From positions 1-23,046 of IMG/VR virus record IMGVR_UViG_3300023087_000116: a stretch of 23,046 nt of DNA. The stretch is one strand, 5' to 3'. Within the stretch, counting starts at the first letter, position 1, and the number at the start of each line of letters is the position of its first letter. The stretch is from a virus. Position numbers and translations under genes: made by a program. Under the pieces are notes generated by a model. The model was not told the DNA's origin. It searched no databases and saw only the letters and a list, made by a program, of their open reading frames with translations. Of this stretch, positions 1 to 9,133 are shown piece after piece.

Positions 1-186
1 TCTAGGTGACTCTCACAGTGTGTGCACAACGCATAAAAAATTATTTTATAATGTTAAAATGTGGGCAGTTATACAGTATATGTATTAGTTTCCCACGGGA
101 CAGATAAAAAATAAAGTTAAATATTGCCTATATATTATCATTTGGGATAACATACAGGCTTTATTTAGTTAATCAGCCAAGGGCAT
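1..186. other. non-coding A/T-rich stretch at left edge
   Basis: I see no credible gene here. The longest minus-strand reading frame with an ATG is about 22 codons (start near 152) and has no supporting context. There is no copy of the 13-base leftward promoter element and no clear RNA gene. It lies downstream of the strong leftward terminator at 187-221, so it may separate this block from the next one to the left. Confidence 0.5.
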
Positions 187-221
187 AAAAAAGTCCCATA
201 CCTCCGAAGAGGCATGGACTT
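187..221 (-). terminator. strong intrinsic terminator with UUCG tetraloop
   Basis: On the minus strand a 13-bp stem with one bulged base is closed by a C(UUCG)G tetraloop and followed by six T residues. The only non-Watson-Crick pair (plus 200/213) is a U-G wobble on the minus RNA but an A-C mismatch on the plus strand, which supports leftward use. It ends the transcript of the gene at 226-528. Confidence 0.9.
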
Positions 222-225
222 AATG

Positions 226-528
226 TTATGCAAAGGCTTTAGCCATTTCAATGTCTTCCCAATGTTGAGACATTTCAGGTGAAGTATAGCGTTGGTATTG
301 CTCACTCCACTCCAAGGTAATTGTAGTTGGGTGGTCAAGACCATGGATGCGCTTAAAGAACAGAGGTTGAGTCTCTTCTTCATCAGCGTATCTTACTTGC
401 GCTTCAGGTGTATTCTCAAGGTATTCCTCAATATCTGTTGTTACTACAAAGATACCTTGGATAATACGCTTGCCTGTTTCTTCATCATACTTGTTAGTAA
501 TTCTGCGTTTTAGAAATTTTGCTTTCAT
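226..528 (-). CDS. small acidic hypothetical phage protein, 100 aa
   Basis: I do not recognise the family. The 100-aa product has a basic N-terminus (MKAKFLKRR) followed by an acidic, threonine- and glutamate-rich body, with no signal peptide, membrane span or cysteine cluster. It looks like a small soluble cytoplasmic protein of the host-takeover type often found in phage early regions. The start at 528 is the natural one: it follows an A/T-rich leader and lies 32 bases downstream of a 13-base promoter element. A strong terminator begins 4 bases after the stop, so this is a monocistronic unit. Function unknown. Confidence 0.85.
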   Translation of the reverse strand: MKAKFLKRRITNKYDEETGKRIIQGIFVVTTDIEEYLENTPEAQVRYADEEETQPLFFKRIHGLDHPTTITLEWSEQYQRYTSPEMSQHWEDIEMAKAFA

Positions 529-560
529 AATTTTAATCTTTAAAGGTTAATTACTTATCA

Positions 561-575
561 TCTATAGAAACTGTT
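561..575 (-). promoter_or_regulatory. leftward 13-mer element, copy 1
   Basis: On the minus strand this reads ACAGTTTCTATAG plus flanking bases, one of eight near-identical copies between 561 and 2448. It stands upstream of the gene at 226-528. A phage-specific promoter is inferred from its fixed position before genes and after terminator-like hairpins. Confidence 0.7.
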
Positions 576-579
576 TAAA

Positions 580-591
580 CCGCGTAAGCGG
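580..591 (-). repeat. short GC hairpin upstream of promoter copy 1
   Basis: Arms CCGC and GCGG enclose GTAA (TTAC on the minus strand). This loop matches that of the terminator hairpin at 614-629. It sits between that terminator and the next promoter element, so it may be a second stop or an insulator. Confidence 0.5.
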
Positions 592-601
592 GAATATGTT
601 A

Positions 602-629
602 TAAAGAAAGTAAGGCGCCGTAAGGCGCC
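602..629 (-). terminator. intrinsic terminator after the 36-aa gene
   Basis: On the minus strand the palindrome GGCGCC is repeated across a TTAC loop, giving a 6-bp all-GC stem, and is followed by the T-rich tail TTACTTTCTTTAT. On the plus strand it appears as a tandem copy of TAAGGCGCCG at 611-630. It lies 8 bases past the stop of the gene at 638-748. Confidence 0.75.
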
Positions 630-637
630 GTTATACA

Positions 638-748
638 TTAGTAAATGTCATAGATAGTTTCTCTACGCTCATACAGAAAGCATTCTACACGCTCTTCTAT
701 TGGCATACTATCTTCCGGGTAATAGAATTGTGTTAAGTCTTCATCCAT
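638..748 (-). CDS. very small acidic protein, 36 aa
   Basis: This short frame reads MDEDLTQFYYPEDSMPIEER and ends ETIYDIY. It is strongly acidic and tyrosine-rich, with no recognised domain. I accept it as a gene because it is placed like its neighbours: the ATG lies 23 bases downstream of a copy of the 13-base promoter element, and the stop is followed within ten bases by a GC-rich hairpin with a T-rich tail. A different frame of this stretch would lack that framing. Function unknown. Phage micro-proteins of this size and charge often act as inhibitors of host enzymes, but nothing in the sequence shows this. Confidence 0.65.
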   Translation of the reverse strand: MDEDLTQFYYPEDSMPIEERVECFLYERRETIYDIY

Positions 749-771
749 GGTAATATAATTTTGGTTATTGT

Positions 772-786
772 TCTATAGAAACTGTT
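772..786 (-). promoter_or_regulatory. leftward 13-mer element, copy 2
   Basis: The minus strand reads ACAGTTTCTATAG. It lies 23 bases upstream of the ATG of the 36-aa gene and downstream of the ncRNA terminator at 841-890. Confidence 0.7.
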
Positions 787-840
787 ACGCGTTATACTTT
801 ACAGACATACCCACGGTATACTGTTAAGAGACATGGTAAG

Positions 841-890
841 AAAAAACAAGTAGGGTAAGAGACATTGCATATGATATCTCTTACCTACTT
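841..890 (-). terminator. intrinsic terminator of the first putative ncRNA
   Basis: On the minus strand the arms are AAGTAGGTAAGAGA (877-890) and TCTCTTACCCTACTT (848-862). They form 14 pairs with one bulged base around a 14-nt loop, followed by G and then six T residues. This is a strong stem and a clear T-tract, oriented leftward. Confidence 0.85.
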
Positions 891-1045
891 GGAGCTCTTG
901 TTCTTGAGTAGGATGCTCACCCCTACTTTCATCACATAGTGATTAAGTATGCCTTACACAGTAGGTACCTACCTTGTGCCCTGGGTTAAGGCTCATCACA
1001 TAATCAAAAGTTTTTGATCCCAGGAAACGCGTTAGTAATTATAAT
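842..1045 (-). ncRNA. putative structured non-coding RNA 1 (~200 nt)
   Basis: This stretch has a copy of the leftward 13-mer element directly upstream (1046-1060) and a strong intrinsic terminator at its end (841-890), but no believable ORF: the best frames are 15 and 17 codons. Read on the minus strand it folds locally into several hairpins. CCTGGG/CCCAGG (1019-1024 with 980-985) encloses an ATCAAAA/TTTTGAT hairpin (1003-1018). Next comes CACA..GTAG/CTAC..TGTG built on a perfect 12-base palindrome at 961-972. Then come ATCAC/GTGAT with a 3-nt loop, GTAGG/CCTAC with a 9-nt loop, and the terminator stem. It is not a tRNA and I recognise no known RNA family. The promoter, folded body and terminator together make a small independent RNA gene the best reading. 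Confidence 0.6.
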
Positions 1046-1060
1046 ACTAAAGAAACTGTT
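1046..1060 (-). promoter_or_regulatory. leftward 13-mer element, copy 3, before ncRNA 1
   Basis: The minus strand reads ACAGTTTCTTTAG. No ATG-started gene follows within the usual 18-33 bases. Instead a hairpin-rich stretch with a terminator follows, so this copy argues that the element acts in transcription rather than as a translation signal. Confidence 0.7.
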
Positions 1061-1109
1061 TAATAAAAATGAGTAAGTACACAGAACACCGTACAAAATA
1101 TACTTACCC
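1061..1109 (-). terminator. intrinsic terminator of the second putative ncRNA
   Basis: On the minus strand GGGTAAGTA (1101-1109) pairs with TACTTACTC (1071-1079), nine pairs with one G-U, around a 21-nt loop. The tail ATTTTTATTA follows at once. The promoter element for the next unit starts directly after it. Confidence 0.7.
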
Positions 1110-1172
1110 GTTATTAAGATCCATTAAGGTATTCTATTTGCTAACTCCGAAAAATTAACTCTCTTAATAACT

Positions 1173-1201
1173 AAACAAAAGTAGAAGGTGATCAGCCTTC
1201 T
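1173..1201 (-). terminator. internal hairpin with T-rich tail inside ncRNA 2
   Basis: A 6-bp stem (1183-1188 with 1196-1201) with a 7-nt loop is followed on the minus strand by ACTTTTGTTT. It could be a partial terminator that yields a short form of the RNA, or simply a structural hairpin. Confidence 0.45.
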
Positions 1202-1264
1202 CCTTTCTATCTCACAAAATACCAAGCAGGGCAGCTGATACTAGTACTTTGTTTTGACTACAAG

Positions 1265-1279
1265 GCTATAGAAACTGTT
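1265..1279 (-). promoter_or_regulatory. leftward 13-mer element, copy 4, before ncRNA 2
   Basis: The minus strand reads ACAGTTTCTATAG. A CTTTAC/GTAAAG hairpin (1284-1298) lies just upstream, and a non-coding, hairpin-rich stretch lies downstream. Confidence 0.7.
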
Positions 1280-1321
1280 TAAACTTTACGTAGTAAAGGA
1301 ATACAATATGTTAAGCCCCTA

Positions 1322-1349
1322 TAAAGAAAAGAGGAAGCCTAAGCTTCCT
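1322..1349 (-). terminator. intrinsic terminator overlapping the 57-aa stop
   Basis: On the minus strand the 7-bp stem AGGAAGC/GCTTCCT has the loop TTAG, and the TAG stop codon of the 57-aa gene is read within that loop. The tail CTTTTCTTTA follows. The TTAG loop recurs in the hairpins at 1904-1925 and 2168-2196. Confidence 0.75.
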
Positions 1350-1512
1350 TCTTCTTACAGATGTTGAATACAACGTATTCTCCAGCAGTATGGATTTCAT
1401 ACTTACGTAAGATGCCAGTAGTAATCCACTGGTTAATCTTTGTCTGAACTTTAGTCAGACCTTCTGCATCATTGGCCATGACGCTTTCAATAAGGACCTT
1501 ATAGTTTTCCAT
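1339..1512 (-). CDS. small hypothetical protein, 57 aa
   Basis: The product begins MENYKVLIESVM and ends NICKKKEA. It has a mixed alpha/beta look: an amphipathic N-terminal helix, then KINQWITTGILRKYEI followed by the beta-like GEYVVFN, which faintly resembles a helix-turn-helix with a wing. That is only an impression. A promoter element lies 17 bases upstream of the ATG, the shortest spacing of the set, so the mRNA leader must be very short if the element is a promoter. The stop codon falls inside the terminator hairpin loop, so termination and the end of translation coincide. No recognised family. A small cytoplasmic takeover protein is plausible. Confidence 0.75.
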   Translation of the reverse strand: MENYKVLIESVMANDAEGLTKVQTKINQWITTGILRKYEIHTAGEYVVFNICKKKEA

Positions 1513-1529
1513 GGTAAAAAATTTAGATC

Positions 1530-1544
1530 TCTAAAGAAACTGTA
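1530..1544 (-). promoter_or_regulatory. leftward 13-mer element, copy 5
   Basis: The minus strand reads ACAGTTTCTTTAG. It stands 17 bases before the ATG of the 57-aa gene and directly after the hairpin at 1549-1576 that closes the preceding unit. Confidence 0.7.
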
Positions 1545-1548
1545 AGAG

Positions 1549-1576
1549 TAAGGGCTCAACATAAGCTGAGCCCCTA
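1549..1576 (-). terminator. hairpin after the 79-aa gene
   Basis: On the minus strand the stem around GGGCTCA/TGAGCCC extends to 10 pairs, with one U-G that would be A-C on the other strand, and an 8-nt loop. The tail CTCTTAC is only moderately T-rich, so termination may be partial. Confidence 0.6.
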
Positions 1577-1579
1577 ACA

Positions 1580-1819
1580 TTAGAATGGTAAGTCATCCCA
1601 ACGAATTGGATCTGGGTTACTATGATAGTTAGCGCTAAAGAACCAACGCTTATAGTCATGCAACCATGGGAATGCTAGTTGCTTAGTCTCAACAACGCTG
1701 AAACTTTCTACACTACCACCAGGAGCATCATAGTCAGCTTCAAAGTCTATCATCTTTACAAGACCATCAGTATCTACATAAGTATACCAATCCAATCCTT
1801 TCAATTCAATAAGTGTCAT
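1580..1819 (-). CDS. hypothetical protein, 79 aa, aromatic and acidic
   Basis: The 79-aa product is rich in aspartate and tryptophan, with segments GLDWYTYVDTDGLVKMIDFE and a tail ending IRWDDLPF. There is no signal peptide, membrane helix or cysteine motif. The repeated aromatic-acidic pattern suggests a compact beta-rich soluble protein, but I know no matching family. The ATG lies 25 bases downstream of a 13-mer promoter element, and a hairpin follows the stop within a few bases, so this is a single-gene transcription unit. Its leader shares a second 12-base element (minus strand ATACTAATCAAA) with the two genes upstream in the transcription direction. Confidence 0.8.
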   Translation of the reverse strand: MTLIELKGLDWYTYVDTDGLVKMIDFEADYDAPGGSVESFSVVETKQLAFPWLHDYKRWFFSANYHSNPDPIRWDDLPF

Positions 1820-1829
1820 AATAAAACGT

Positions 1830-1841
1830 TTTGATTAGTAT
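1830..1841 (-). promoter_or_regulatory. second leader element ATACTAATCAAA, copy 1
   Basis: An exact 12-base match on the minus strand is shared by three neighbouring leaders (also 2138-2149 and 2419-2430), between the 13-mer element and the ATG. It may be part of the promoter, a leader RNA signal, or a trace of unit duplication. Confidence 0.5.
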
Positions 1842-1844
1842 ATA

Positions 1845-1859
1845 TCTAAAGAAACTGTA
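1845..1859 (-). promoter_or_regulatory. leftward 13-mer element, copy 6
   Basis: The minus strand reads ACAGTTTCTTTAG, 25 bases upstream of the ATG of the 79-aa gene. Confidence 0.7.
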
Positions 1860-1903
1860 CACACTCTGCTTTGTAGACCTTTACATAAACCAGGTGTTTT
1901 AAG

Positions 1904-1925
1904 TAAGAGAGCCTAAGCCCCCTTA
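1904..1925 (-). terminator. hairpin with TTAG loop after the 65-aa gene
   Basis: Nine pairs on the minus strand with a TTAG loop, two of them U-G wobbles that are A-C mismatches on the plus strand. This fixes the RNA strand as leftward. The tail is not T-rich, so it may be a weak terminator or an mRNA 3'-end stabiliser. Confidence 0.55.
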
Positions 1926-1927
1926 TC

Positions 1928-2125
1928 TTATCTATTCTCATACCAGTAACCATGTAGCATAGCAGCAGATACATGAGCAAACATAGCAAACCAAAACTTG
2001 GCGTCTATGCCCCAAGAGAAGTAGTTAGCCTCAGCACCAAAGGTTAACCCTATTAGGTACAATGAGATGAACGCAATTACTACAAAGACAAAGTGTCTAA
2101 CAATAGTTCTAATAATCTTTTCCAT
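1928..2125 (-). CDS. small membrane protein, 65 aa, about two helices
   Basis: The 65-aa product has a short positive N-terminus (MEKIIRTIVRH), a strong hydrophobic segment at about residues 12-30 (FVFVVIAFISLYLIGLTFG), and a second, less hydrophobic aromatic-rich stretch at about 41-58. This suggests two inner-membrane spans with both ends inside. No family is recognised. Phage membrane proteins of this size include superinfection-exclusion factors and holin-like proteins, but there is no lysis gene beside it, so the role is open. The ATG is 27 bases downstream of a 13-mer element, and a TTAG-loop hairpin follows the stop, making a monocistronic unit. Confidence 0.8.
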   Translation of the reverse strand: MEKIIRTIVRHFVFVVIAFISLYLIGLTFGAEANYFSWGIDAKFWFAMFAHVSAAMLHGYWYENR

Positions 2126-2137
2126 AAAGCTTTATAA

Positions 2138-2149
2138 TTTGATTAGTAT
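2138..2149 (-). promoter_or_regulatory. second leader element ATACTAATCAAA, copy 2
   Basis: Exact copy of the 12-base leader element, between the 13-mer at 2153-2167 and the ATG of the 65-aa gene. Confidence 0.5.
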
Positions 2150-2152
2150 ATC

Positions 2153-2167
2153 ACTAGAGAAACTGTT
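2153..2167 (-). promoter_or_regulatory. leftward 13-mer element, copy 7
   Basis: The minus strand reads ACAGTTTCTCTAG. This is the only copy with C at the variable tenth position of the 13-mer. Confidence 0.7.
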
Positions 2168-2196
2168 AAAGAATAAGGGAGAGCCTAAGCCCTCCC
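2168..2196 (-). terminator. intrinsic terminator with TTAG loop after the 68-aa gene
   Basis: An 8-bp GC-rich stem (2177-2184 with 2189-2196) with a TTAG loop is followed on the minus strand by TTATTCTTTAA. One U-G pair is compatible only with leftward transcription. Confidence 0.75.
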
Positions 2197-2201
2197 CTTC
2201 A

Positions 2202-2408
2202 TTACATTTGCTTCAACATGAATAGCAGATGTTCCTTCCTTTCAACTAAGGTGAAAACCTTACGTTCAGTGAAGTCACTCCAGATATCATCTTTCTCTTG
2301 CTGGAGCACAGCTTGCAGCTCTCTCTCTGTCTGTGCAACTCTAGCTTTGATAGCTTCTTTCACTTCCCACATCTGGTCGTGAGTGTCATAGTTTAATTCC
2401 TTTGTCAT
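2202..2408 (-). CDS. small coiled-coil hypothetical protein, 68 aa
   Basis: The 68-aa product is almost entirely helical by composition. Charged heptad-like stretches run from about residue 15 to 45 (VKEAIKARVAQTERELQAVL, then QQEKDDIW) and continue into a basic, leucine-rich tail ending FMLKQM. It probably dimerises or binds a host protein as a coiled coil. There is no recognisable DNA-binding or catalytic motif. The ATG is 25 bases downstream of a 13-mer element, with the 12-base leader element between them, and a good intrinsic terminator follows the stop. This is the first unit of the small-gene array in the direction of transcription. Confidence 0.8.
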   Translation of the reverse strand: MTKELNYDTHDQMWEVKEAIKARVAQTERELQAVLQQEKDDIWSDFTERKVFTLVERKEHLLFMLKQM

Positions 2409-2418
2409 AACAAAAATT

Positions 2419-2430
2419 TTTGATTAGTAT
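2419..2430 (-). promoter_or_regulatory. second leader element ATACTAATCAAA, copy 3
   Basis: Exact copy of the 12-base leader element in front of the 68-aa gene. Confidence 0.5.
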
Positions 2431-2433
2431 TTT

Positions 2434-2448
2434 TCTAAAGAAACTGTT
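2434..2448 (-). promoter_or_regulatory. leftward 13-mer element, copy 8
   Basis: The minus strand reads ACAGTTTCTTTAG. This is the rightmost copy. The overlapping-gene operon further right (2581-4335) has none, so the array of independent units begins here. Confidence 0.7.
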
Positions 2449-2455
2449 AGACTAT

Positions 2456-2480
2456 GGGGGGTCCCCCTAACTTTTTTTTT
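2456..2480 (+). terminator. G/C-run hairpin with nine T, facing right
   Basis: GGGGGG-T-CCCCC folds into a short GC stem, and on the plus strand TAAC and then nine T residues follow. This looks like a rightward terminator although no rightward gene lies to its left; it could block antisense transcription into the operon. On the minus strand the run would precede the stem, so it is not a normal leftward terminator. The homopolymers are also places where read errors are likely. Confidence 0.4.
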
Positions 2481-2580
2481 GCCGGGGCTTTGTTTCTAGG
2501 GACTCTGCCTCCATGCAAAACACATTAAATTTTGGTATGAGGAGGGGAATGATTATAAAATTGCTGTGTACCGGGGAGTT

Positions 2581-2670
2581 TTAGTTTAGGTACTCCATAA
2601 TTTTATCCATGATATAGGGTATAAGCTTTACGCATATTACTCCCAGTACTATTACTAGTAGGATTTTCAT
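2581..2670 (-). CDS. 29-aa single-span membrane micro-protein
   Basis: The frame encodes a 29-residue peptide beginning MKILLVIVLGVICVKLIPYI and ending MEYLN: one hydrophobic helix at about residues 3-20 with a short polar tail. Such a short frame would not count alone. Here its ATG overlaps the TGA of the 107-aa gene as ATGA, the same coupling seen elsewhere in this operon, which supports translation by re-initiation. It is the last gene of the leftward operon; the next 130 bases contain only short frames. Likely an inner-membrane peptide; function unknown. Confidence 0.6.
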   Translation of the reverse strand: MKILLVIVLGVICVKLIPYIMDKIMEYLN

Positions 2671-2990
2671 TTGGTGTATCTGTTAAGTTGTTCAGATATT
2701 CTAACTTTTACTACAGGATCTTCAACATGTTCATATGCTTCTTGTAATAGGTCTTTGATATCTTCAATGCCTTTACGTTTGGAGTGCATACGGTTAGCAG
2801 TTTCTACTTGGAAGAGGTGGTATGCAACTTCATCTGTAGATTTAAGTTTGTTATAGTATTTATCTAGGCGTACGTCTAGTTTACGTTTACGTTCTAGGTT
2901 GCTTACTGTAGGTATAGCTTTATGTAGTTCGTCAATACGTCCTTTGAGATATTGAATTTCTAGGAGTTTATGGATTTCGTGTTCTGTCAT
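2667..2990 (-). CDS. helical, charged hypothetical protein, 107 aa
   Basis: The product is rich in Lys, Glu, Arg and Leu and appears to be a helical bundle or coiled coil throughout, for example LKGRIDELHKAI near residues 15-26 and IKDLLQEAYEHVEDPVVKVR further on. No membrane span, cysteine pair or catalytic motif is visible. The start at 2990 is one base after the TAA of the upstream gene, and its TGA overlaps the next ATG by four bases, so it is embedded in a translationally coupled operon. No family recognised. A regulator or host-protein binder is possible. Confidence 0.8.
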   Translation of the reverse strand: MTEHEIHKLLEIQYLKGRIDELHKAIPTVSNLERKRKLDVRLDKYYNKLKSTDEVAYHLFQVETANRMHSKRKGIEDIKDLLQEAYEHVEDPVVKVRISEQLNRYTK

Positions 2991-2991
2991 G

Positions 2992-3159
2992 TTAATAGTT
3001 TTTAGGAATTAAGTTTAAAGATATGAACCATCTGCCCCATCCGATTTCTAAGGAGTAGAAACCATTTAGATCTAGAGTATATCCTATAAGTATAGTGGGA
3101 AGTATGGAGAAGTGTCCCCAGGTTTTAAGAGTTGTTATCTCTAGAATCCAGTTTTTCAT
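2992..3159 (-). CDS. small hydrophobic, probably membrane-bound protein, 55 aa
   Basis: I start this gene at the internal ATG at 3159 (MKNWILEITTLKTWGHFSIL) rather than the upstream ATG at 3186, because the later start limits overlap with the preceding 53-aa gene to 35 bases. The middle (about residues 15-33) is hydrophobic and the remainder is rich in Trp, Phe and Tyr, consistent with a membrane-associated peptide. Its TAA is one base before the next ATG. Such a short hydrophobic frame could be a shadow of the 53-aa gene for its first third, but it runs well past the end of that gene. Function unknown. Confidence 0.6.
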   Translation of the reverse strand: MKNWILEITTLKTWGHFSILPTILIGYTLDLNGFYSLEIGWGRWFISLNLIPKNY

Positions 3160-3286
3160 CTTGTAAACGTTTAATTTCTTTAGCATGATACATCATGCGT
3201 TTCATGTCAGTGTTAATACTATAACGGGCTTCTTGCCATTGTCTCATATGCCACTTAAGATCATTACTCTGTTCTTTTGCTTTCAT
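3125..3286 (-). CDS. basic helical micro-protein, 53 aa
   Basis: The product begins MKAKEQSNDLKWHMRQWQEA, contains KRMMYHAKEIKRLQDEK, and ends RDNNS. It is highly charged and predicted helical, with no recognised domain. It overlaps the 3' end of the thioesterase gene by 23 bases and the next gene by 35 bases. Gene overlaps of this size are a habit of this operon, so I consider the frame real. A small basic helix could bind nucleic acid or a host protein; nothing shows which. Confidence 0.65.
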   Translation of the reverse strand: MKAKEQSNDLKWHMRQWQEARYSINTDMKRMMYHAKEIKRLQDEKLDSRDNNS

Positions 3287-3665
3287 TGTATTTTGCTTTT
3301 ACTCTATCTGAGATGGGTATGCTATCACCATTCTCATCAATTCTTACAAATCTTATATTAGTTGATAGGATAACAGACTGCTGACCAGAGTATACGTTGT
3401 GTGCTCTAGCTTCAAGATAGAAAGTAATAGAGGTGTTACCAATGTGTACTACTTTACCATAGATCTTGATCAGCTGACCTTCTTTGGCTGGCTTTTTAAA
3501 TAGGCATTTATCAATCATTACAGTCACCATACGTGGAGTGTCACAGACCTCCATGGCATACGCTGCCCCCGCTGCATCCAGCCAGGCTAAAAGTTTGCCC
3601 CCGAAGAGATTGGCATGAAAACCTAGATCACTTTTTTTAACGGGATGTGTGGTGATTAAGTTCAT
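3264..3665 (-). CDS. acyl-CoA thioesterase, hotdog fold (YciA/BFIT-like)
   Basis: At 133 aa this has the length of a single hotdog domain. Visible features match the YciA / acyl-CoA hydrolase family (4HBT fold). The segment NLFGGKLLAWLDAAGAAYA (residues 19-37) is the central helix with the expected aspartate (D30). MVTVMIDKCLFKKPAKEGQL resembles the family's VT...F..P...G strand pair, and KIYGKVVHIGNTSITFYLEA is the characteristic G-N/T-S strand region. Family members hydrolyse acyl-CoA thioesters to fatty acid and CoA in the cytoplasm, so this is a metabolic gene carried by the phage, perhaps altering host lipid or CoA pools during infection. Its start overlaps the upstream 55-aa gene by 29 bases and its end overlaps the 53-aa gene. 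The substrate cannot be inferred. Confidence 0.87.
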   Translation of the reverse strand: MNLITTHPVKKSDLGFHANLFGGKLLAWLDAAGAAYAMEVCDTPRMVTVMIDKCLFKKPAKEGQLIKIYGKVVHIGNTSITFYLEARAHNVYSGQQSVILSTNIRFVRIDENGDSIPISDRVKAKYNESKRTE

Positions 3666-3804
3666 TGATTTGTGTATTGATCTCTTCTAGATGTTGTTTT
3701 ATCTCCAGGGCCTCTTTAAGAGCTTCTAAACCACTGGATCTTTGAATATCATACAGTCTATGCTGCAGCCATTCACGTTCTTGTTGTAGTTTGTCTAGAG
3801 TCAT
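3637..3804 (-). CDS. small coiled-coil protein, 55 aa
   Basis: The product begins MTLDKLQQEREWLQHRLYDI and continues as one long amphipathic helix (ALKEALEIKQHLEEINTQIN) to a short His-rich end. Its ATG overlaps the stop of the secreted-protein gene as ATGA, and its 3' end overlaps the thioesterase start by 29 bases, so it is translated as part of the chain. A coiled-coil dimer is very likely. It might be a partner of the thioesterase, which it directly precedes, but this is only positional. Confidence 0.75.
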   Translation of the reverse strand: MTLDKLQQEREWLQHRLYDIQRSSGLEALKEALEIKQHLEEINTQINELNHHTSR

Positions 3805-4232
3805 ATCACTAGTTTAAGTCCTACATGGACATAGTTCAAGTTTGGATTTACTTGCAATATACTAAAAGTTCCGTATAAGTGCTTGATTATCTGATAGTCA
3901 GCTCCTGCTCTACCAATAAGAAGGGTTGGATCATGGTTTAATCTGTATACAGGACCACCATAAATTCTTAATTTGCGAATTACAAATTCATACTGTGCAA
4001 ATGTGTATGCAGCTCCATGATGTCCCTCACCCATTGCTAAGATACCAACAAACAGATTATCGTATCCAACCTCTGCTACAACGCCTTGTGCATGAAAACA
4101 AGATACATATCCAATTGCCCCAGACTTCTTATCAGATAGTAAGAAATCATTTATTGGATGATATGGGCTACACTCCTGTGCAGTGCTACCCAGCCAGAGG
4201 ATAGTTAGAAAAATCGTAAGTAGGTACTTCAC
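3801..4232 (-). CDS. secreted protein, possible small outer-membrane beta-barrel
   Basis: The 143-aa product has a clear Sec signal peptide: a short basic start, a hydrophobic core (LLTIFLTILWLG), and a cleavage-like STAQ at residues 16-19. The AQ ending is common in Bacteroidota exported proteins. The mature part alternates polar and hydrophobic or aromatic residues (VVAEVGYDNLFVGILAMG, QYEFVIRKLRIYGGPVYRL, and the end NYVHVGLKLVI). This suggests several transmembrane beta strands and resembles small outer-membrane beta-barrel or YadA/OmpW-like host proteins. A plausible job is altering the outer surface, for example superinfection exclusion, or it may be an acquired host gene. Its TGA overlaps the next ATG. 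The length is short for a full 8-strand barrel, so the fold is uncertain. Confidence 0.75.
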   Translation of the reverse strand: MKYLLTIFLTILWLGSTAQECSPYHPINDFLLSDKKSGAIGYVSCFHAQGVVAEVGYDNLFVGILAMGEGHHGAAYTFAQYEFVIRKLRIYGGPVYRLNHDPTLLIGRAGADYQIIKHLYGTFSILQVNPNLNYVHVGLKLVI

Positions 4233-4335
4233 TGACGTAATAGTAGTTAAGAGTTAAATTGATTGAAGCTGTGGTATTCATATACCACTCTGGATATACC
4301 CCACTTTGATCTTGTATAAATATGGTTTCACTCAT
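4186..4335 (-). CDS. possible small protein at the operon head, 49 aa
   Basis: This frame starts at an ATG at 4335 (MSETIFIQDQSGVYPEWYMN), passes a Tyr-rich stretch and ends NYPLAG. It overlaps the start of the secreted-protein gene by 47 bases, in line with the heavy overlaps in the operon. It would otherwise leave an untranslated leader of about 100 bases. No domain is recognisable and composition alone does not prove coding. If real, it is the first gene of the leftward operon. Confidence 0.45.
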   Translation of the reverse strand: MSETIFIQDQSGVYPEWYMNTTASINLTLNYYYVSEVPTYDFSNYPLAG

Positions 4336-4413
4336 ATTACTAAGATAATCATAAATTTTAAATATTTAAACTTATTTTGTATATTAGTAATGTAAACTTT
4401 AAAACTAACAACA
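4336..4413. promoter_or_regulatory. divergent strand-switch region
   Basis: This very A/T-rich gap separates the leftward operon from the rightward packaging and structural genes, so it must hold the promoters for both unless transcripts cross it. On the plus strand it contains TTTGTATATTA (4376-4386), 27 bases before the ATG at 4414. No leftward 13-mer is present, so the overlapping-gene operon must use a different promoter class from the small single-gene units. Confidence 0.6.
4376..4386 (+). promoter_or_regulatory. candidate late promoter TTTGTATATTA, copy 1
   Basis: This exact 11-mer also occurs at 11978-11988 and 16928-16938, each time upstream of a structural gene block. All three are followed by a TA-G/A-TG-like segment. 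The TATATTA core recalls a -10 element; the factor that reads it is unknown. Confidence 0.65.
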
Positions 4414-4635
4414 ATGTCTGAAGATAAAAAAGACTTGTCTCCACAGGAATACCAGGAGCGCAAAGAGAAGCTTCATGAGTTTTACACTAAAGAAGTAAAG
4501 TGGTTGCAAACTCAGCTAGAATATGAGGAGCTACTAAGAGATATATCTAAGGCTAGAGCAGAAAGATTGCAAGCAGACGCCTTTGTTTTACAAATGACTA
4601 ACCCACAAGAAGGTGAGGACGATGCTGGTGAATAA
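4414..4635 (+). CDS. small helical protein, first rightward gene, 73 aa
   Basis: The product is polar and helical (EYQERKEKLHEFYTKEVKWL, then a second helix to about residue 60) and ends in an acidic tail, NPQEGEDDAGE. It looks like a helical hairpin or coiled coil. The gene begins 27 bases after a candidate late promoter, after an A-rich leader (AACAACA), and its 3' end overlaps the next gene by 14 bases. No family recognised. Its place at the head of the packaging block suggests an assembly or regulatory accessory protein, but this is inference. Confidence 0.8.
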   Translation: MSEDKKDLSPQEYQERKEKLHEFYTKEVKWLQTQLEYEELLRDISKARAERLQADAFVLQMTNPQEGEDDAGE

Positions 4636-5020
4636 AGTAGATAAGAGAGTTAAGCTTGATAAGCGTGAGGTTGTCAAGTATCAGATCCTTACATACTGTT
4701 TTCTGAATGGTGTGCAGGTAAGTGAGTCTGATCTTAACTGTCTTACTGAGCTTGGTCTTCTGGGTGAAGATGAGCTTACTTCTTTTTGCTCTAAGGTTGC
4801 GGAGAAAAATATATTTAAGTCTCCACAATCTGCACGTAATGCCATTACTAAAGCAGAGAAGAAGAATCTTTTGGTAAAAAACGGTAAGAACCGTAAGACT
4901 ATTAAGCTAAATGATATATTGAACGTTCAAGTAAACGGTACTGTATTGCTTGATTTTAAATTTGTTTCTGTTGAAGCCAAAGAAGTACAGAGAAATACTG
5001 AAGAAGATACAGAAGCATAA
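4622..5020 (+). CDS. putative winged-helix DNA-binding protein, 132 aa
   Basis: I choose the ATG at 4622 over the GTG nine bases earlier, because AAGGTGAGG sits a normal Shine-Dalgarno distance upstream of it. The N-terminal half is helical and Lys-rich (VDKRVKLDKREVVKYQILTY). Residues from about 90 contain SARNAITKAEKKNLLVKNG followed by KNRKTIKLND, which resembles the recognition helix and wing of a winged-helix domain. The C-terminus is acidic (EAKEVQRNTEEDTEA). The pattern suggests a DNA- or RNA-binding regulator or a replication or packaging accessory factor. It overlaps both neighbours and precedes the IHF-like gene. The assignment rests on pattern only. Confidence 0.75.
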   Translation: MLVNKVDKRVKLDKREVVKYQILTYCFLNGVQVSESDLNCLTELGLLGEDELTSFCSKVAEKNIFKSPQSARNAITKAEKKNLLVKNGKNRKTIKLNDILNVQVNGTVLLDFKFVSVEAKEVQRNTEEDTEA

Positions 5021-5339
5021 TGACTGGGATGAAGATCTCATGTCAGATGCGGTAAACTTTTTCTATAGTCGTGTTAGAAAAGCTATGTCTAGCCTAGAGG
5101 ATACTACAATGTTTATCCCAAAGCTGGGAACCTTTAAGATTCGCAAGCATAGGATGGATAAGATGATTGAAGAAAAGGAAGAGCTGATAAAGAAACTAAA
5201 CCCTCATGAGTTTACTAAGTATGATTCATACAGAAAAAACAAGGAGGATTTAGAAAAACTATACAAAATAAAAAATAAGTTTAATGAGCTGGATAAGAAA
5301 CGTACTGAATTCCGTACAGGAACGGGTACAAAAGATTAA
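4950..5339 (+). CDS. IHF/HU-like DNA-binding protein with C-terminal helical tail, 129 aa
   Basis: Residues about 11-66 match the HU/IHF fold: two N-terminal helices (KKYREILKKI, then SDAVNFFYSRVRKAMSSLED) followed by the family signature strand FIPKLGTFKIRKHRM, equivalent to the G-F/L-GTF-x-R turn of HU. The long DNA-clamping arm of classic HU is replaced by a charged helical tail of about 60 residues. Such proteins bend or bind DNA and are typical of crAss-like and related Bacteroidota phages, next to packaging genes. The helices need residues before the ATG at 5040, so translation must begin earlier. ATG 4950 is used here, though the TTG codons at 4962 or 4971 would shorten the unusually large overlap with the upstream gene. 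Confidence 0.85.
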   Translation: MILNLFLLKPKKYREILKKIQKHNDWDEDLMSDAVNFFYSRVRKAMSSLEDTTMFIPKLGTFKIRKHRMDKMIEEKEELIKKLNPHEFTKYDSYRKNKEDLEKLYKIKNKFNELDKKRTEFRTGTGTKD

Positions 5340-5580
5340 AGAAGCTTGGGGTAACCGGTTTCTTATTCTTGATGCAGTAAAGAACTACATGGCTAATGAC
5401 TCAGAGATTGAAGCGTTAGCCACAACTAGAATGGATATTTGTAATGAGTGTCCATTATTAGATTTAAAGGGATCTAAATGTTTTGCTCCTGGAACGCAAC
5501 CTTGCTGCGGGAGTTGTGGATGTTCTTTAAAGTTGAAGACAAGAAGCGTTGAAAGTTCTTGTCCAGAAGGAAAATGGTAA
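5284..5580 (+). CDS. Cys-rich zinc-ribbon-like protein, 98 aa
   Basis: The N-terminal half is helical (VQERVQKIKEAWGNRFLILD). The C-terminal half has the pattern R-x3-C-x2-C (RMDICNEC), then further cysteines and CGSCGCSLKLKTR, ending CPEGKW. This arrangement, an IC-x2-C pair, a C-x2-CGC pair, K-x-K and a terminal CP-x-x-KW, is a recurrent small phage protein family that presumably binds one or two zinc ions. Its function is not known to me; DNA or protein binding is likely. It overlaps the IHF-like gene by 56 bases and is followed three bases later by the nuclease gene, which ties it to the pre-packaging block. Confidence 0.8.
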   Translation: MSWIRNVLNSVQERVQKIKEAWGNRFLILDAVKNYMANDSEIEALATTRMDICNECPLLDLKGSKCFAPGTQPCCGSCGCSLKLKTRSVESSCPEGKW

Positions 5581-5583
5581 ACT

Positions 5584-6396
5584 ATGTCTGTAGCATTTAC
5601 AGCAAATAACCACAAGTATGTAAGTATTGATGGAGAAGATATTCTCTGGACCAGTACTACATCTTTTATATCTAAGTTTAAAAAGCCCTTTGATAGGGAT
5701 GGAGTAGCTGAAAGAGTTTCTAAGAGTAAAAAATCCAAGTGGTATGGTAAGACTCCTGATGAGATTAAGGCTATTTGGGATGGTGAGGCTTCTAGAGCAA
5801 TGGACCTTGGTAACTGGTATCATGATCAAAGAGAAGCTGACTTGCTTGAATTTAACACTATTGAGCGTTACGGAAAGGAAGTTCCTATAGTTAGACCTAT
5901 CACAGAGGGAGAAAAGAAGCTAGCACCCCCTCAAAAGCTCTCAGATGGGTTGTATCCAGAGCATTTAGTCTACCTTAAGTCTGCAGGTATATCTGGTCAG
6001 TCAGATCTTGTAGAGGTTGTTGACGGTTATGTACACATCACCGACTATAAAACCAATAAGGAGATTAAAGAAAAGTCCTATGTAAACTGGGAAGGTGTAT
6101 CTCAAAAGATGTTACCCCCTGTAGATCACCTGGATGACTGTAATTTAAACCATTATAATTTACAGTTATCACTTTACATGTACATTATCCTCAAACACAA
6201 CCGTAGACTAAAGCCTGGAAACCTGGTAATACAGCACGTGAAGTTTGAAAAGGATGGTGAAGATGAAAACGGATACCCAATTAATAGCAAAAATGCACAA
6301 GGAGACTATGTTATTGAGGATATCAAATATTATGAGCTACCTTATTTAAGAGAAGAGGTGGTTAACATGCTCAAGTGGCACAAACAAAATAAGTAA
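5584..6396 (+). CDS. PD-(D/E)XK nuclease, RecB/Cas4-type exonuclease domain
   Basis: The 270-aa product shows the ordered motifs of the RecB-family PD-(D/E)XK fold: RAMDLGNWYHDQRE with H80 (the G-x-x-x-H motif), E126 in the conserved E-H-x-V strand, GQSDLVEV with D141, HITDYKTNKEIK with D154 and K156, and the helix NLQLSLYMYIL (about 192-202), equivalent to the Q-x-x-x-Y motif. All expected metal and catalytic residues are present, so it should be active. There are no Fe-S cysteines of the Cas4 type. Members degrade or trim DNA ends. In this neighbourhood, shared with many Bacteroidota phages, it probably serves recombination, genome processing or packaging. The stop overlaps the next ATG (TAATG). 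Confidence 0.92.
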   Translation: MSVAFTANNHKYVSIDGEDILWTSTTSFISKFKKPFDRDGVAERVSKSKKSKWYGKTPDEIKAIWDGEASRAMDLGNWYHDQREADLLEFNTIERYGKEVPIVRPITEGEKKLAPPQKLSDGLYPEHLVYLKSAGISGQSDLVEVVDGYVHITDYKTNKEIKEKSYVNWEGVSQKMLPPVDHLDDCNLNHYNLQLSLYMYIILKHNRRLKPGNLVIQHVKFEKDGEDENGYPINSKNAQGDYVIEDIKYYELPYLREEVVNMLKWHKQNK

Positions 6397-6929
6397 TGCT
6401 GGTAAAATTATTTGATATTCAGAACGGAACTGTAATTCCTAGTGAACATAGTTATACATTGAACTTCCTAAAAGTGATTAGAGAGGAGTATCCTGAAGAA
6501 CATTTAGACATCTATGCCTACTTGTTCTACATGACTTGCCCTAATCCAGATATGAATCCTTTCTTCAATATTCCCGATAGAGATAAAGAAGACCTGATAC
6601 TCAGGGAGTTACGTACTGGTAAAGATTTCTCTGACTTTGATACAGATGAAGAGATGATTCAAGAAGCTTTAAAGAATTGTACTCTGTTATACGAGACTCC
6701 TACTTATAGAGCTTATAAGGGTATTGCTAGTATGTTGGACCGTTTGGCAGACTATATGATGAGAACACCAATAGAACATGGTAGAGATGGTAACATTAAT
6801 CAGATAGTTAATGCAGCTGCTAAATTTGAACAAATACGAAATTCATTTAAAGGAGCTTATTCAGATCTACAGGAAGAGCAGAAGTCTTCTGTTAGAGGAG
6901 GTCAAAACTTATCTTATGATCAAATGTAA
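6396..6929 (+). CDS. conserved-position hypothetical protein before TerL, 177 aa
   Basis: The 177-aa product is acidic and helical, with aromatic-rich segments (DIYAYLFYMTCPNPDMNPFF), then DKEDLILREL, TYRAYKGIASMLDRLADYMM and a Gly/Ser-rich end. It overlaps the nuclease and terminase genes by a base each (TAATG junctions), so the three are made together. Position immediately upstream of TerL is where small terminase subunits often lie, but there is no helix-turn-helix that I can see and the length is only roughly right. I leave the function open: small terminase or terminase accessory protein is the leading guess. Confidence 0.8.
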   Translation: MLVKLFDIQNGTVIPSEHSYTLNFLKVIREEYPEEHLDIYAYLFYMTCPNPDMNPFFNIPDRDKEDLILRELRTGKDFSDFDTDEEMIQEALKNCTLLYETPTYRAYKGIASMLDRLADYMMRTPIEHGRDGNINQIVNAAAKFEQIRNSFKGAYSDLQEEQKSSVRGGQNLSYDQM

Positions 6930-9133
6930 TGAGTGATATCAGTATCTCATGTTATAACTGTAAGGAGCAAGTCTGGACAGAGGCAAAGTTCAAAGAAAAA
7001 AATGAACTTGTCAAGTTTATCCAAGAACTTTTTAAAGAGCCTGGTGAGTATAACTTCACTGAGGAGACTGAAATATTTACTGCCGAAGCTACTAAATTCA
7101 ATAAATACGGGGTTTATTGTACAGCTCCATACATGTCAAAAGAATTTGTTGAGTACTGGGATGATCAAAAACAAAAGTGCCGCAATGGGGTAATTATCCA
7201 GGGAGAGAAAGACACCTGGTATCTTACTCGTGACTACTACATGTGGTTAAATTTTCTTCCCATCTACGACAAGGAAGAAAAGAAATACGGCTTTGCTAAG
7301 GTTAGGGATGCTCAGTATCATATGGCATTATATGAATGGTTGGCTGAAGCCGAATACAAACACGTAGCCATTCTGAAAAAACGTCAGATTGCATCATCAT
7401 ACTTTCATGCCGCCAAACTTCTAAATACTTATTGGTTTGAAGAAGGTGCTGTACTAAAGATGGGTGCATCACTTAAATCCTATGTTAATGATGAGGGTAC
7501 ATGGAAATTCCTGGACGAGTACAAGAACTTTCTTAATGAACACACCGCCTGGTACAGACCAGCAAATCCTGACAAAACTCTTTTATGGGAGCAAAAAATT
7601 GAGGTTACTATCAATGGGCGTAAGCAGAATAAAGGGCTTATGTCTAAGATACAGGGGATGTCTTTTGAAAAGAATGCCACCAAAGGAGTAGGGGGTCCTG
7701 TAACTTATTTCTTTCATGAGGAAGCAGGTATTGCTCCTAAGATGGATCAGACCTATGAATACTTAAGACCTGCCATGGCGTCAGGTCAGATTACTACAGG
7801 TATGTTTATTGCAGCAGGATCTGTAGGGGATTTGGAACAATGTGAACCGTTAAAGGACATGATCCTAAATCCTAAAGCCAACGATATCTATGCAGTAGAA
7901 ACCAACCTGCTAGATGATAAGGGGAGTAGAGGAGAAGTGGGACTCTTCATTCCTGAACAGTGGTCTATGCCACCTCTTATAGATGATTGGGGAAACTCAA
8001 TGATAGAGGAAGCATTGCTAGCTATTCAGGAAGAGAGGGCTACATGGAAAAGAGAATTAAGCCCTGAGCAGTATCAGCTGAGAATATCTCAGAAACCAAC
8101 AAACATTGCTGAGGCTTTTGCTTATCGTAAAGAGTCACTCTTCCCTCAAAACCTTATCTCATCACAAACCAAAAGAATTGAGGATAAAAACTATCCTGTA
8201 GAACATCTTGAGTTAGATTGGGATGAAGCCGGCACTGGTATTAAAGCTAGCCGTAGCAGAAAGCAACCAATCAATACTTTTCCTGTAGATAAGCGTCAAG
8301 AAGATAAGACTGGAGTACTTTGTGTTTATGAGCGTCCAGTAGATAATCCTGAGTTTGGTATGTACTATGCTAGTATTGACCCCGTAGGAGAAGGTAAAAC
8401 AACAACGTCTGAGTCACTTTGTAGCATCTATGTATATAAGAACCCTATTGAGGTAACAAAGATCACTGACGAAGGTCCTCAGAGCTTTGTAGAGGGTGAT
8501 AAAATTGTAGCTGCCTGGTGTGGTAGATATGATGATATCAATAAGACTCATGAGCAGCTAGAAAAGATTATAGAATATTACAGAGCTTGGACTCTTGTGG
8601 AAAATAACGTGTCACTATTTATCCAGTATATGATTGCTAAACGCAAACAGAAGTGGCTGGTTCCCAAGGATCAAGTCCTATTCCTGAAAGATATAGGGAG
8701 TAATAGAAGTGTGTACGCAGAGTATGGGTGGAAGAATACTGGTACAATGTTTAAGAATCACTTAATAAACTATGCTATTGAGTTCCTTAAAGAGGAGATA
8801 GATATAGAGACTGATGCTGACGGCACCATTACTAAACGTATATTTGGTATTGAACGCATTCCTGATATTATGCTTATGAAAGAAATGCAAGCATACCAGC
8901 CTGGTGTAAACGTGGATAGACTGGTATCTTTTGCAGCTCTTATAAGTTTTGCCAAAGTGCAACAAGCAAATAGAGGATATCAGAAACGAATTGATAATGA
9001 GTCATCTGTAAAATTGGATAATACGCAGAAAATGACTAAATTAAATATGAGTCCCTTTAGACATATTGGAGGGGGCAACAAAGGTATTATGGGAGGTAAA
9101 GGAAAGCGTTCAGCTTTTAAAAATTTAAAGTAA
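6929..9133 (+). CDS. terL: terminase large subunit (ATPase-nuclease)
   Basis: The 734-aa product is a phage DNA-packaging motor. In the ATPase domain, the Walker A-like segment AILKKRQIASS (residues 147-157) is a variant P-loop of the R-x-x-x-S type without the canonical GKT/S. The Walker B-like strand is GPVTYFFHEEAGI, with E264 and E265, and AAGSVGD (296-302) fits the coupling motif. The RNase H-fold nuclease domain has YYASIDPVGEG with D484, LVENN with E558, and VDRLVSFA with D663 as the three acidic metal ligands. It is larger than most TerL proteins because of N-terminal (about 140 aa) and C-terminal extensions. It acts at the portal to translocate and cut the genome. The portal gene starts two bases after its stop. 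Confidence 0.93.
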   Translation: MSDISISCYNCKEQVWTEAKFKEKNELVKFIQELFKEPGEYNFTEETEIFTAEATKFNKYGVYCTAPYMSKEFVEYWDDQKQKCRNGVIIQGEKDTWYLTRDYYMWLNFLPIYDKEEKKYGFAKVRDAQYHMALYEWLAEAEYKHVAILKKRQIASSYFHAAKLLNTYWFEEGAVLKMGASLKSYVNDEGTWKFLDEYKNFLNEHTAWYRPANPDKTLLWEQKIEVTINGRKQNKGLMSKIQGMSFEKNATKGVGGPVTYFFHEEAGIAPKMDQTYEYLRPAMASGQITTGMFIAAGSVGDLEQCEPLKDMILNPKANDIYAVETNLLDDKGSRGEVGLFIPEQWSMPPLIDDWGNSMIEEALLAIQEERATWKRELSPEQYQLRISQKPTNIAEAFAYRKESLFPQNLISSQTKRIEDKNYPVEHLELDWDEAGTGIKASRSRKQPINTFPVDKRQEDKTGVLCVYERPVDNPEFGMYYASIDPVGEGKTTTSESLCSIYVYKNPIEVTKITDEGPQSFVEGDKIVAAWCGRYDDINKTHEQLEKIIEYYRAWTLVENNVSLFIQYMIAKRKQKWLVPKDQVLFLKDIGSNRSVYAEYGWKNTGTMFKNHLINYAIEFLKEEIDIETDADGTITKRIFGIERIPDIMLMKEMQAYQPGVNVDRLVSFAALISFAKVQQANRGYQKRIDNESSVKLDNTQKMTKLNMSPFRHIGGGNKGIMGGKGKRSAFKNLK

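Follow-up and report, generated by a model that had tools for sequence, protein, structure and literature searches.

The DNA analysed here, referred to as the window, is a stretch of 23,046 nt corresponding to positions 1 to 23,046 of the virus record IMGVR_UViG_3300023087_000116. PHROG matches and tblastn revealed crAss-type terminase, portal and head/capsid genes in this 23-kb record, and the window is part of the genome of a crAss-like phage, a type of phage that is very abundant. A near relative, G003 (104 kb, locus L004), has a terminase 99% identical to that of the window. It also matched (26% over 734 residues, E 1.9e-22) the C-terminal part of a large structural protein of the Cellulophaga phage phi14:2 virion, a protein of 2180 residues which we take to be a giant virion RNA polymerase. 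The start of G003 corresponds to window position 2925 and its other end aligns with a 35-kb relative, G017, near base 8,850 (approximately 94-95% identity over 17.7 kb), thus placing the array of small genes described here (195-2447) within the gap of G003. The only relative found to carry this array was G017 itself (locus L084, contig IMGVR_UViG_3300048123_000034), recovered through a 100-aa array protein with 95% identity.

The array is located between the rightward late genes and a leftward block and consists of eight cassettes, each opening with the 13-mer ACAGTTTCTNTAG, followed three bases downstream by a TATAcT-like hexamer. Six of the eight encode proteins of 36-100 aa, and the other two, termed units A and B, encode no protein. 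A leftward 4HBT thioesterase-like protein (window 3264-3665; Pfam PF03061, E 5.6e-17) adjoins the array, and the approximately 190 bases past the last array gene (window 1-200) are non-coding, well conserved in L084 and devoid of the 13-mer.

Table 1. Coordinates of the array, of units A and B and of the predicted helices of RNA A in the window.
Feature	Coordinates	Strand	Basis
Eight leftward cassettes forming the array (13-mer, hexamer and gene, mostly followed by a terminator-like hairpin)	195..2447	-	Eight exact 13-mers, six small ORFs, hairpin scan
36-aa gene, downstream of unit A	638..748	-	ORF
13-mer preceding the 36-aa gene (next unit), separated from P1 by one base	773..785	-	13-mer scan
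Putative RNA A, ~246 nt, five-helix junction	787..1032	-	Comparison with L084, consensus fold
P1, 3' arm	787..793	-	Fold; ACGCGT count
P5 hairpin, 13 pairs; three one-sided changes, all pairing	797..828	-	Consensus fold
P4 (954-951 with 832-829), closing the variable arm that contains hairpin 885-854	829..954	-	Fold, terminator scan
P3 (979-969 with 964-956); one both-sided change	956..979	-	Consensus fold
P2 (1024-1019 with 985-980) and loop; one pair changed on both sides	980..1024	-	Consensus fold
P1, 5' arm (with 787-793), ACGCGUU/AACGCGU	1026..1032	-	Fold; ACGCGT count
TATAAT hexamer of unit A, three bases after the 13-mer	1038..1043	-	Site alignment; predicted start near 1032
13-mer ACAGTTTCTTTAG preceding unit A	1047..1059	-	13-mer scan, site alignment
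Unit B: terminator-like hairpin at the end; neither coding signal nor relative found	1060..1265	-	Codon scores, searches, folding
13-mer ACAGTTTCTATAG in front of unit B	1266..1278	-	13-mer scan
57-aa gene, upstream of unit B	1339..1512	-	54/57 codons identical in L084, 3 synonymous differences

Scanning of the window revealed eight exact copies of the 13-mer, every one of which lies on the minus strand within 562-2447. Tolerating one mismatch raised the number to ten (strays at 10429 and 22701), which none of 100 shuffles reached. The L084 locus has eight copies, all inside its array, and one exact copy occurs in the 104 kb of G003. When the 16 sites of the two arrays (window 562-2447 and L084 148-2182) were aligned, the fourth base of the hexamer was A in 16 of 16, which are not 16 independent cases because several of them are orthologous pairs. 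No sigma-70 -35 hexamer was found 16-18 bases before the -10 in these 16 sites, positions -7 to -2 holding 0.02-0.99 bits compared to 2.0 bits in the 13-mer, and for lack of a properly spaced -35 hexamer the array site was rejected as a sigma-70 promoter. Sigma-70-like sites numbered 22 in window 1-5600, compared to 19.3 in shuffles, and 16 in L084 1-2800, compared to 7.8, with none at the 13-mer plus hexamer. A terminator scan restricted to loops of 3-8 nt detected a hairpin with a T-rich tail in five of the eight window units (minus strand) and in six of the eight L084 units (matching strand). In several genes the two-part site is close to the ATG, so that leaders there would be only a few bases long.

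The early genes of crAss001 are grouped in a module of their own, and the virion polymerase transcribes a comparable module in phi14:2 (PMC8375218), from which we infer that the array of the window may be early as well. On this view each cassette would be monocistronic and probably immediate-early, with transcription starting from a promoter that is specific to the lineage and composed of the 13-mer, three bases and the TATAcT-like hexamer.

The content of the array varies between phages, since the window has one 79-aa gene where L084 has two other genes. These two small genes (L084 784-1029 and 1138-1386) had no confident Pfam or PHROG match. The L010 contig retains 123 bases of the 79-aa gene (window 1702-1824, L010 1-123), identical, at the contig end and without a 13-mer; this identity, compared to approximately 77% over window 2669-6000, suggests a recent exchange of the cassette. 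The only relative of the 79-aa protein was in the L010 contig, the 57-aa protein had none in phages, and the 100-aa protein had two, in L084 and L085, the latter (32% over 57 residues) being discarded as an array relative because it has no array repeat. Tandem 13-mers (spacings 261-291) were found in 11 stretches of viral contigs, with an array in the L084 contig only; the other ten, judged by their flanks, are repeats embedded in other sequences. In 20 additional loci, the region upstream of the terminase gave no array, the two highest-ranking repeated words on each strand being of low complexity, and no 13-mer-like array was found in the early region of phi14:2 (record without its last 418 bases).

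Codon analyses revealed that neither unit A nor unit B has the coding signal of its neighbours: codon scores were 0.02 to 0.21 in six array genes and -0.14 to -0.38 in all minus-strand stop-free stretches of at least 20 codons in A and B. Synonymous and other differences in the array genes shared with L084 numbered 21/14, 3/0, 3/1 and 19/5, and 10/29 in the fifth, a 65-aa gene. A sequence-only reading of the window had described 842-1045 and 1061-1264 as two adjacent structured RNA genes without an ATG frame above 17 codons. The longest complete ATG frame inside 842-1045 indeed has 17 codons, and in the whole units the longest ATG frames have 23 codons in A (870 to 799) and 6 in B.

L084 has a single non-coding unit where the window has A and B. 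Its core (1780-1866) is 79.1% identical to A over 91 nt and its tail (1916-1962) 93.6% over 47 nt, the middle between these conserved ends being unrelated. The tail lies outside the limits of the sequence-only reading, whose lower boundary for A (842) was wrong, as conservation continues from 842 to 787. In the wider alignment, window 1-832 and L084 2744-1916 are 89% identical, and the tail does not exceed the adjacent 36-aa unit (178/192 bases) in identity. The inverted repeats named in that reading, including GTTATTAAGA/TCTTAATAAC, can be read in the sequence; two of those in A are not conserved in L084, ATCAAAA/TTTTGAT lying in a changing loop and GTAGG/CCTAC in the unrelated middle. Two further repeats were seen in A: TCATCACATA occurs at 993-1002 (P2 loop) and 929-938 (variable arm), and TAAGAGACAT at 825-834 and 856-865, that is, in the conserved tail and in the terminator-like hairpin, so that the tail could compete with one arm of this hairpin.

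Searches for further relatives returned L084 only. Exact 20- and 25-mers of B and A had no match in viral contigs, a two-block pattern of the A core was found there in the L084 contig only, and a longer two-block pattern was absent from bacterial and archaeal genomes. A one-block pattern gave nine stretches, one of them the L084 contig; the other eight have unrelated flanks and no covariance-model match, and were rejected. A covariance model of the core scored well in the window and L084 only among 58 sources, with three more matches at 15.7-17.1 bits (E 1.8-3.6), and among 29 records it recovered G017 only, plus one match at E 0.2; these weak matches were taken for chance. A distant DNA search of 50,697 phage records found nothing for window 780-1330 or L084 1697-1975, and a near DNA search with window 1-6000 gave no match.

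The consensus fold of unit A was obtained with RNAalifold on the two sequences, window and L084, and consists of 39 pairs in five helices around a junction with linkers of 1, 0, 1, 0 and 3 bases. Between the two phages 32 pairs are unchanged, five are changed on one side, two on both sides and none is broken, counted in the same alignment from which the fold was derived. P2, for example, is CCUGGG/CCCAGG in the window and CUUGGG/CCCAAG in L084. Without the variable arm, which was left out only after its non-homology was seen, the consensus had -33.8 kcal/mol and z = -5.32 (0/1000 column shuffles). The background had a mean z of -0.67 (sd 1.13, minimum -4.52, n=220); it consisted of 220 of 473 equal-length windows from alignments of window 1-6900 with related loci (same strand, 65-90% identity), some windows from one contig (L010, L086) having entered twice. 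With the variable arm, z was -4.65 (0/200 shuffles), and coding units with their terminators gave -2.12, -2.15, -4.65 (at 96% identity), -3.29 and -1.28 in the same test. The core of A alone had z = -3.4 (3/500 shuffles), a value as low being found in 1 of 45 coding windows, and the 3' tail alone z = -1.6 (35/500 shuffles). At least two both-sided changes occurred in 10 of the 45 coding windows, and letter shuffles between the two sequences performed equally well in 136 of 500. For the window sequence by itself, the junction is the minimum-energy fold with P3 slightly shifted (-79.0 compared to -78.7 kcal/mol with the consensus pairs enforced), and in L084 it lies 5.9 kcal/mol above the minimum of that sequence.

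Taken with these backgrounds and the shuffle and coding-window controls, the consensus z supports the fold as an energy signal, and covariation supports it weakly. The sequence-only reading had proposed a search for homologues and a test for compensatory changes in the stems; one homologue (L084) and both-sided changes in 2 of the 39 pairs were found, in a comparison of only two sequences. The density of inverted repeats that it described was not above chance: without the terminal hairpin z was +0.15 for A (261/500 shuffles folding as well) and -1.73 for B (30/500 shuffles), the values with the hairpins being -2.41 and -2.20, and protein-coding units fold as low or lower (e.g., z = -4.43 for 1279-1530). 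The prediction of unit A as a structured non-coding RNA is thus supported through the conserved junction, as seen in two sequences only.

The leftward 13-mer noted earlier in front of both units is present at 1059-1047 and 1278-1266, and a hairpin with a T-tract closes both stretches, at 885-854 in A (recovered by the terminator scan) and, in B, as a 12-bp stem that encloses a 15-nt loop and precedes TCATTTTTATT. The equal length attributed to the units holds for the limits of the sequence-only reading only; from 13-mer to 13-mer they measure 261 nt (A) and 206 nt (B). The hexamer of A, at 1043-1038, places the predicted start near 1032, the first base of P1. Since this TATAAT lies 6 bases ahead of P1 and a single base separates the 3' arm of P1 from the next 13-mer, the junction fills unit A. 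The palindrome ACGCGT occurs twice in the window (787 and 1027) and twice in L084 (8.5 kb), always as the P1 arms. In both phages a hairpin with a U-rich tail lies within the variable arm. Transcription could terminate at this hairpin, close to 840, and leave the 3' strands of P1, P4 and P5 unmade. As folded in the window, the U-tract is paired to A-rich sequence upstream of it, and it may therefore belong to the arm. The 13-mer of L084 is approximately 100 nt upstream of P1 (1684 compared to 1785), so that the RNA of L084 would carry a 5' extension. A degenerate 13-mer seen by eye just upstream of the L084 core was rejected as too weak (4/12 bases differ).

Unit B has a weak hexamer, TGTAGT, at 1262-1257, and its terminator hairpin is absent from the scan list because the scan covered loops of 3-8 nt. 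A hairpin of B may resemble the 3' end of 16S rRNA, a likeness to which no weight is given. In L084, the 86 nt that precede the A-like core show no similarity to B (395/500 shuffles score as high), and descent of the 5' portion of the L084 unit from B was accordingly rejected. Of the pair of matched RNA genes originally proposed, A as a structured RNA and the lack of a protein signal in B were borne out, whereas no relative of B was found, its folding without the terminator does not clearly exceed that of its shuffles, and L084 has a single unit. For unit B, an orphan RNA or a cassette in decay is the likeliest reading, and a function for it is not supported.

For RNA A, the repeated promoter-like site, the lack of coding signal and the conserved fold are computed results, and its transcription, exact ends, early expression, action in trans and any partner are inferred. 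The reading ranked most likely, and which we hold to be moderately probable, is that RNA A is an early RNA acting in trans, produced by a cassette whose product is RNA. Its main rival makes A the cis-acting 5' leader of the 36-aa gene, with transcription either stopping at 885-854 or reading through, and the balance set by folding of the junction. A single base lies between the end of the junction and the 13-mer of that gene, no terminator was found there, the order and the 3' tail are unchanged in L084, and the hairpin with its U-tract lies inside the arm in both phages, all of which would suit a leader. However, the 36-aa gene has its own 13-mer, the U-tract is paired within the arm in the window fold, and an attenuator enclosed by its own structure would be unusual, because the 3' strands would be made only after read-through; we regard a leader as unlikely.

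The conserved ends could also act at the DNA level, as an operator or as replication or recombination sites, with ACGCGT beside two promoters. The palindrome does occur at these two places only, in the window as in L084, near the predicted start of A and upstream of the next 13-mer, and the 47-nt tail is conserved no better than the 36-aa unit. An operator would nevertheless leave unexplained the kept pairs of P2, P3 and P5 and the z of -5.32 against the 220 background windows, and a DNA element appears quite improbable. It is very improbable that the units are decayed or hidden protein cassettes, as might be imagined from the exchange of cassettes in the array (the 79-aa gene against two L084 genes, and the L010 fragment without a 13-mer) and from a 33-codon frame of B (1225-1124) with a possible TTG start 40 nt downstream of the 13-mer, a distance similar to that in the other genes. 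A frame as long (ATG, GTG or TTG) arises in 21.5% of shuffles of B, and the codon score of the TTG frame (-0.33) is lower than that of stop-free shuffles on average (-0.21); the overlapping +2 frame contains stops and scores +0.14. Moreover, the A core has gaps of 1 and 2 bases between the phages, and matches of unit frames to array proteins span at most 13 residues (best E 0.038). Readthrough of stop codons gives no more than 46 codons: with TAG as sense, 46 in A, up to 33 in B and up to 25 in L084, and with TGA as sense up to 23, 33 and 21, respectively.

In the preferred trans-acting reading, the site at 1059-1038 would drive transcription from a start near 1032, and the resulting RNA of approximately 246 nt would fold into a compact five-helix junction with its ends paired by P1. 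The P4 arm would change freely between phages, while the junction and the partly conserved P2 loop would bind a host or phage partner as a decoy or scaffold. The adjacent small proteins of the array presumably act on the host, as RNA A would. The decoy, anti-defence or regulator roles suggested in the sequence-only reading are possible. More tentatively, and with less confidence than the action in trans, RNA A might be the first member of a new class of phage RNAs with a constant junction body and an exchangeable arm, made early from a dedicated promoter by an injected phage polymerase and serving as a take-over or anti-defence factor, RNA and protein effectors occupying equivalent slots of the array. 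Should A prove to be a genuine RNA effector of a cassette array, it would offer a defined RNA with which to study host take-over in this order of phages, and more cassettes could be sought by means of the promoter signature.

The sequence-only reading recognised no known RNA class, and the Rfam search that it proposed was consistent with this: Rfam 15 at gathering thresholds gave 0 matches in the whole window, and with the E limit raised to 10, the matches in A, B and the L084 unit were all at chance level and far under the thresholds. ARAGORN found no tRNA or tmRNA genes in the window. The packaging RNA of phage phi29 is a small, early RNA with paired ends and a multi-helix junction; RNA A differs from it in helix number, has no Rfam match and shows no link to packaging. 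ToxI RNAs are tandem repeats of approximately 36 nt, and no such repeats were found: the repeat families of window 786-1265 had two copies each and a length of 10-17 nt, and L084 1690-1965 had no repeat family. The pseudo-ToxI RNA of phage phiTE is a phage RNA that mimics a host RNA and thereby evades a defence system (PMC3475682).

RNA anti-CRISPRs (Racrs) are small non-coding phage RNAs that act in trans as mimics and are described as solitary CRISPR repeats (PMC10651486), whereas RNA A is a larger junction without an Rfam match. No CRISPR-repeat family was among the Rfam matches. Bacterial Y RNAs, the partners of TROVE (Ro) proteins, are structured small RNAs, as A would be, and crAss001 has an early TROVE gene (PMC8375218). 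A TROVE protein was found in none of 10 records, which included the incomplete G003 and G017, in whose missing parts such a gene might lie, and together with the lack of an Rfam match this led to rejection of a Y RNA identity for RNA A. A limited literature search, of sources available in part, found no report of structured non-coding RNA in crAss-like phages. The closest likeness in gene organisation is the host take-over module of Bacillus phage SPO1, which consists of many small, mostly uncharacterised early genes, some of which disrupt host processes (PMC10531801). The window likewise has a cluster of small genes, in a crAss-like phage and known from its sequence only; the SPO1 products described in that source are proteins, whereas here one slot of the array apparently holds an RNA.
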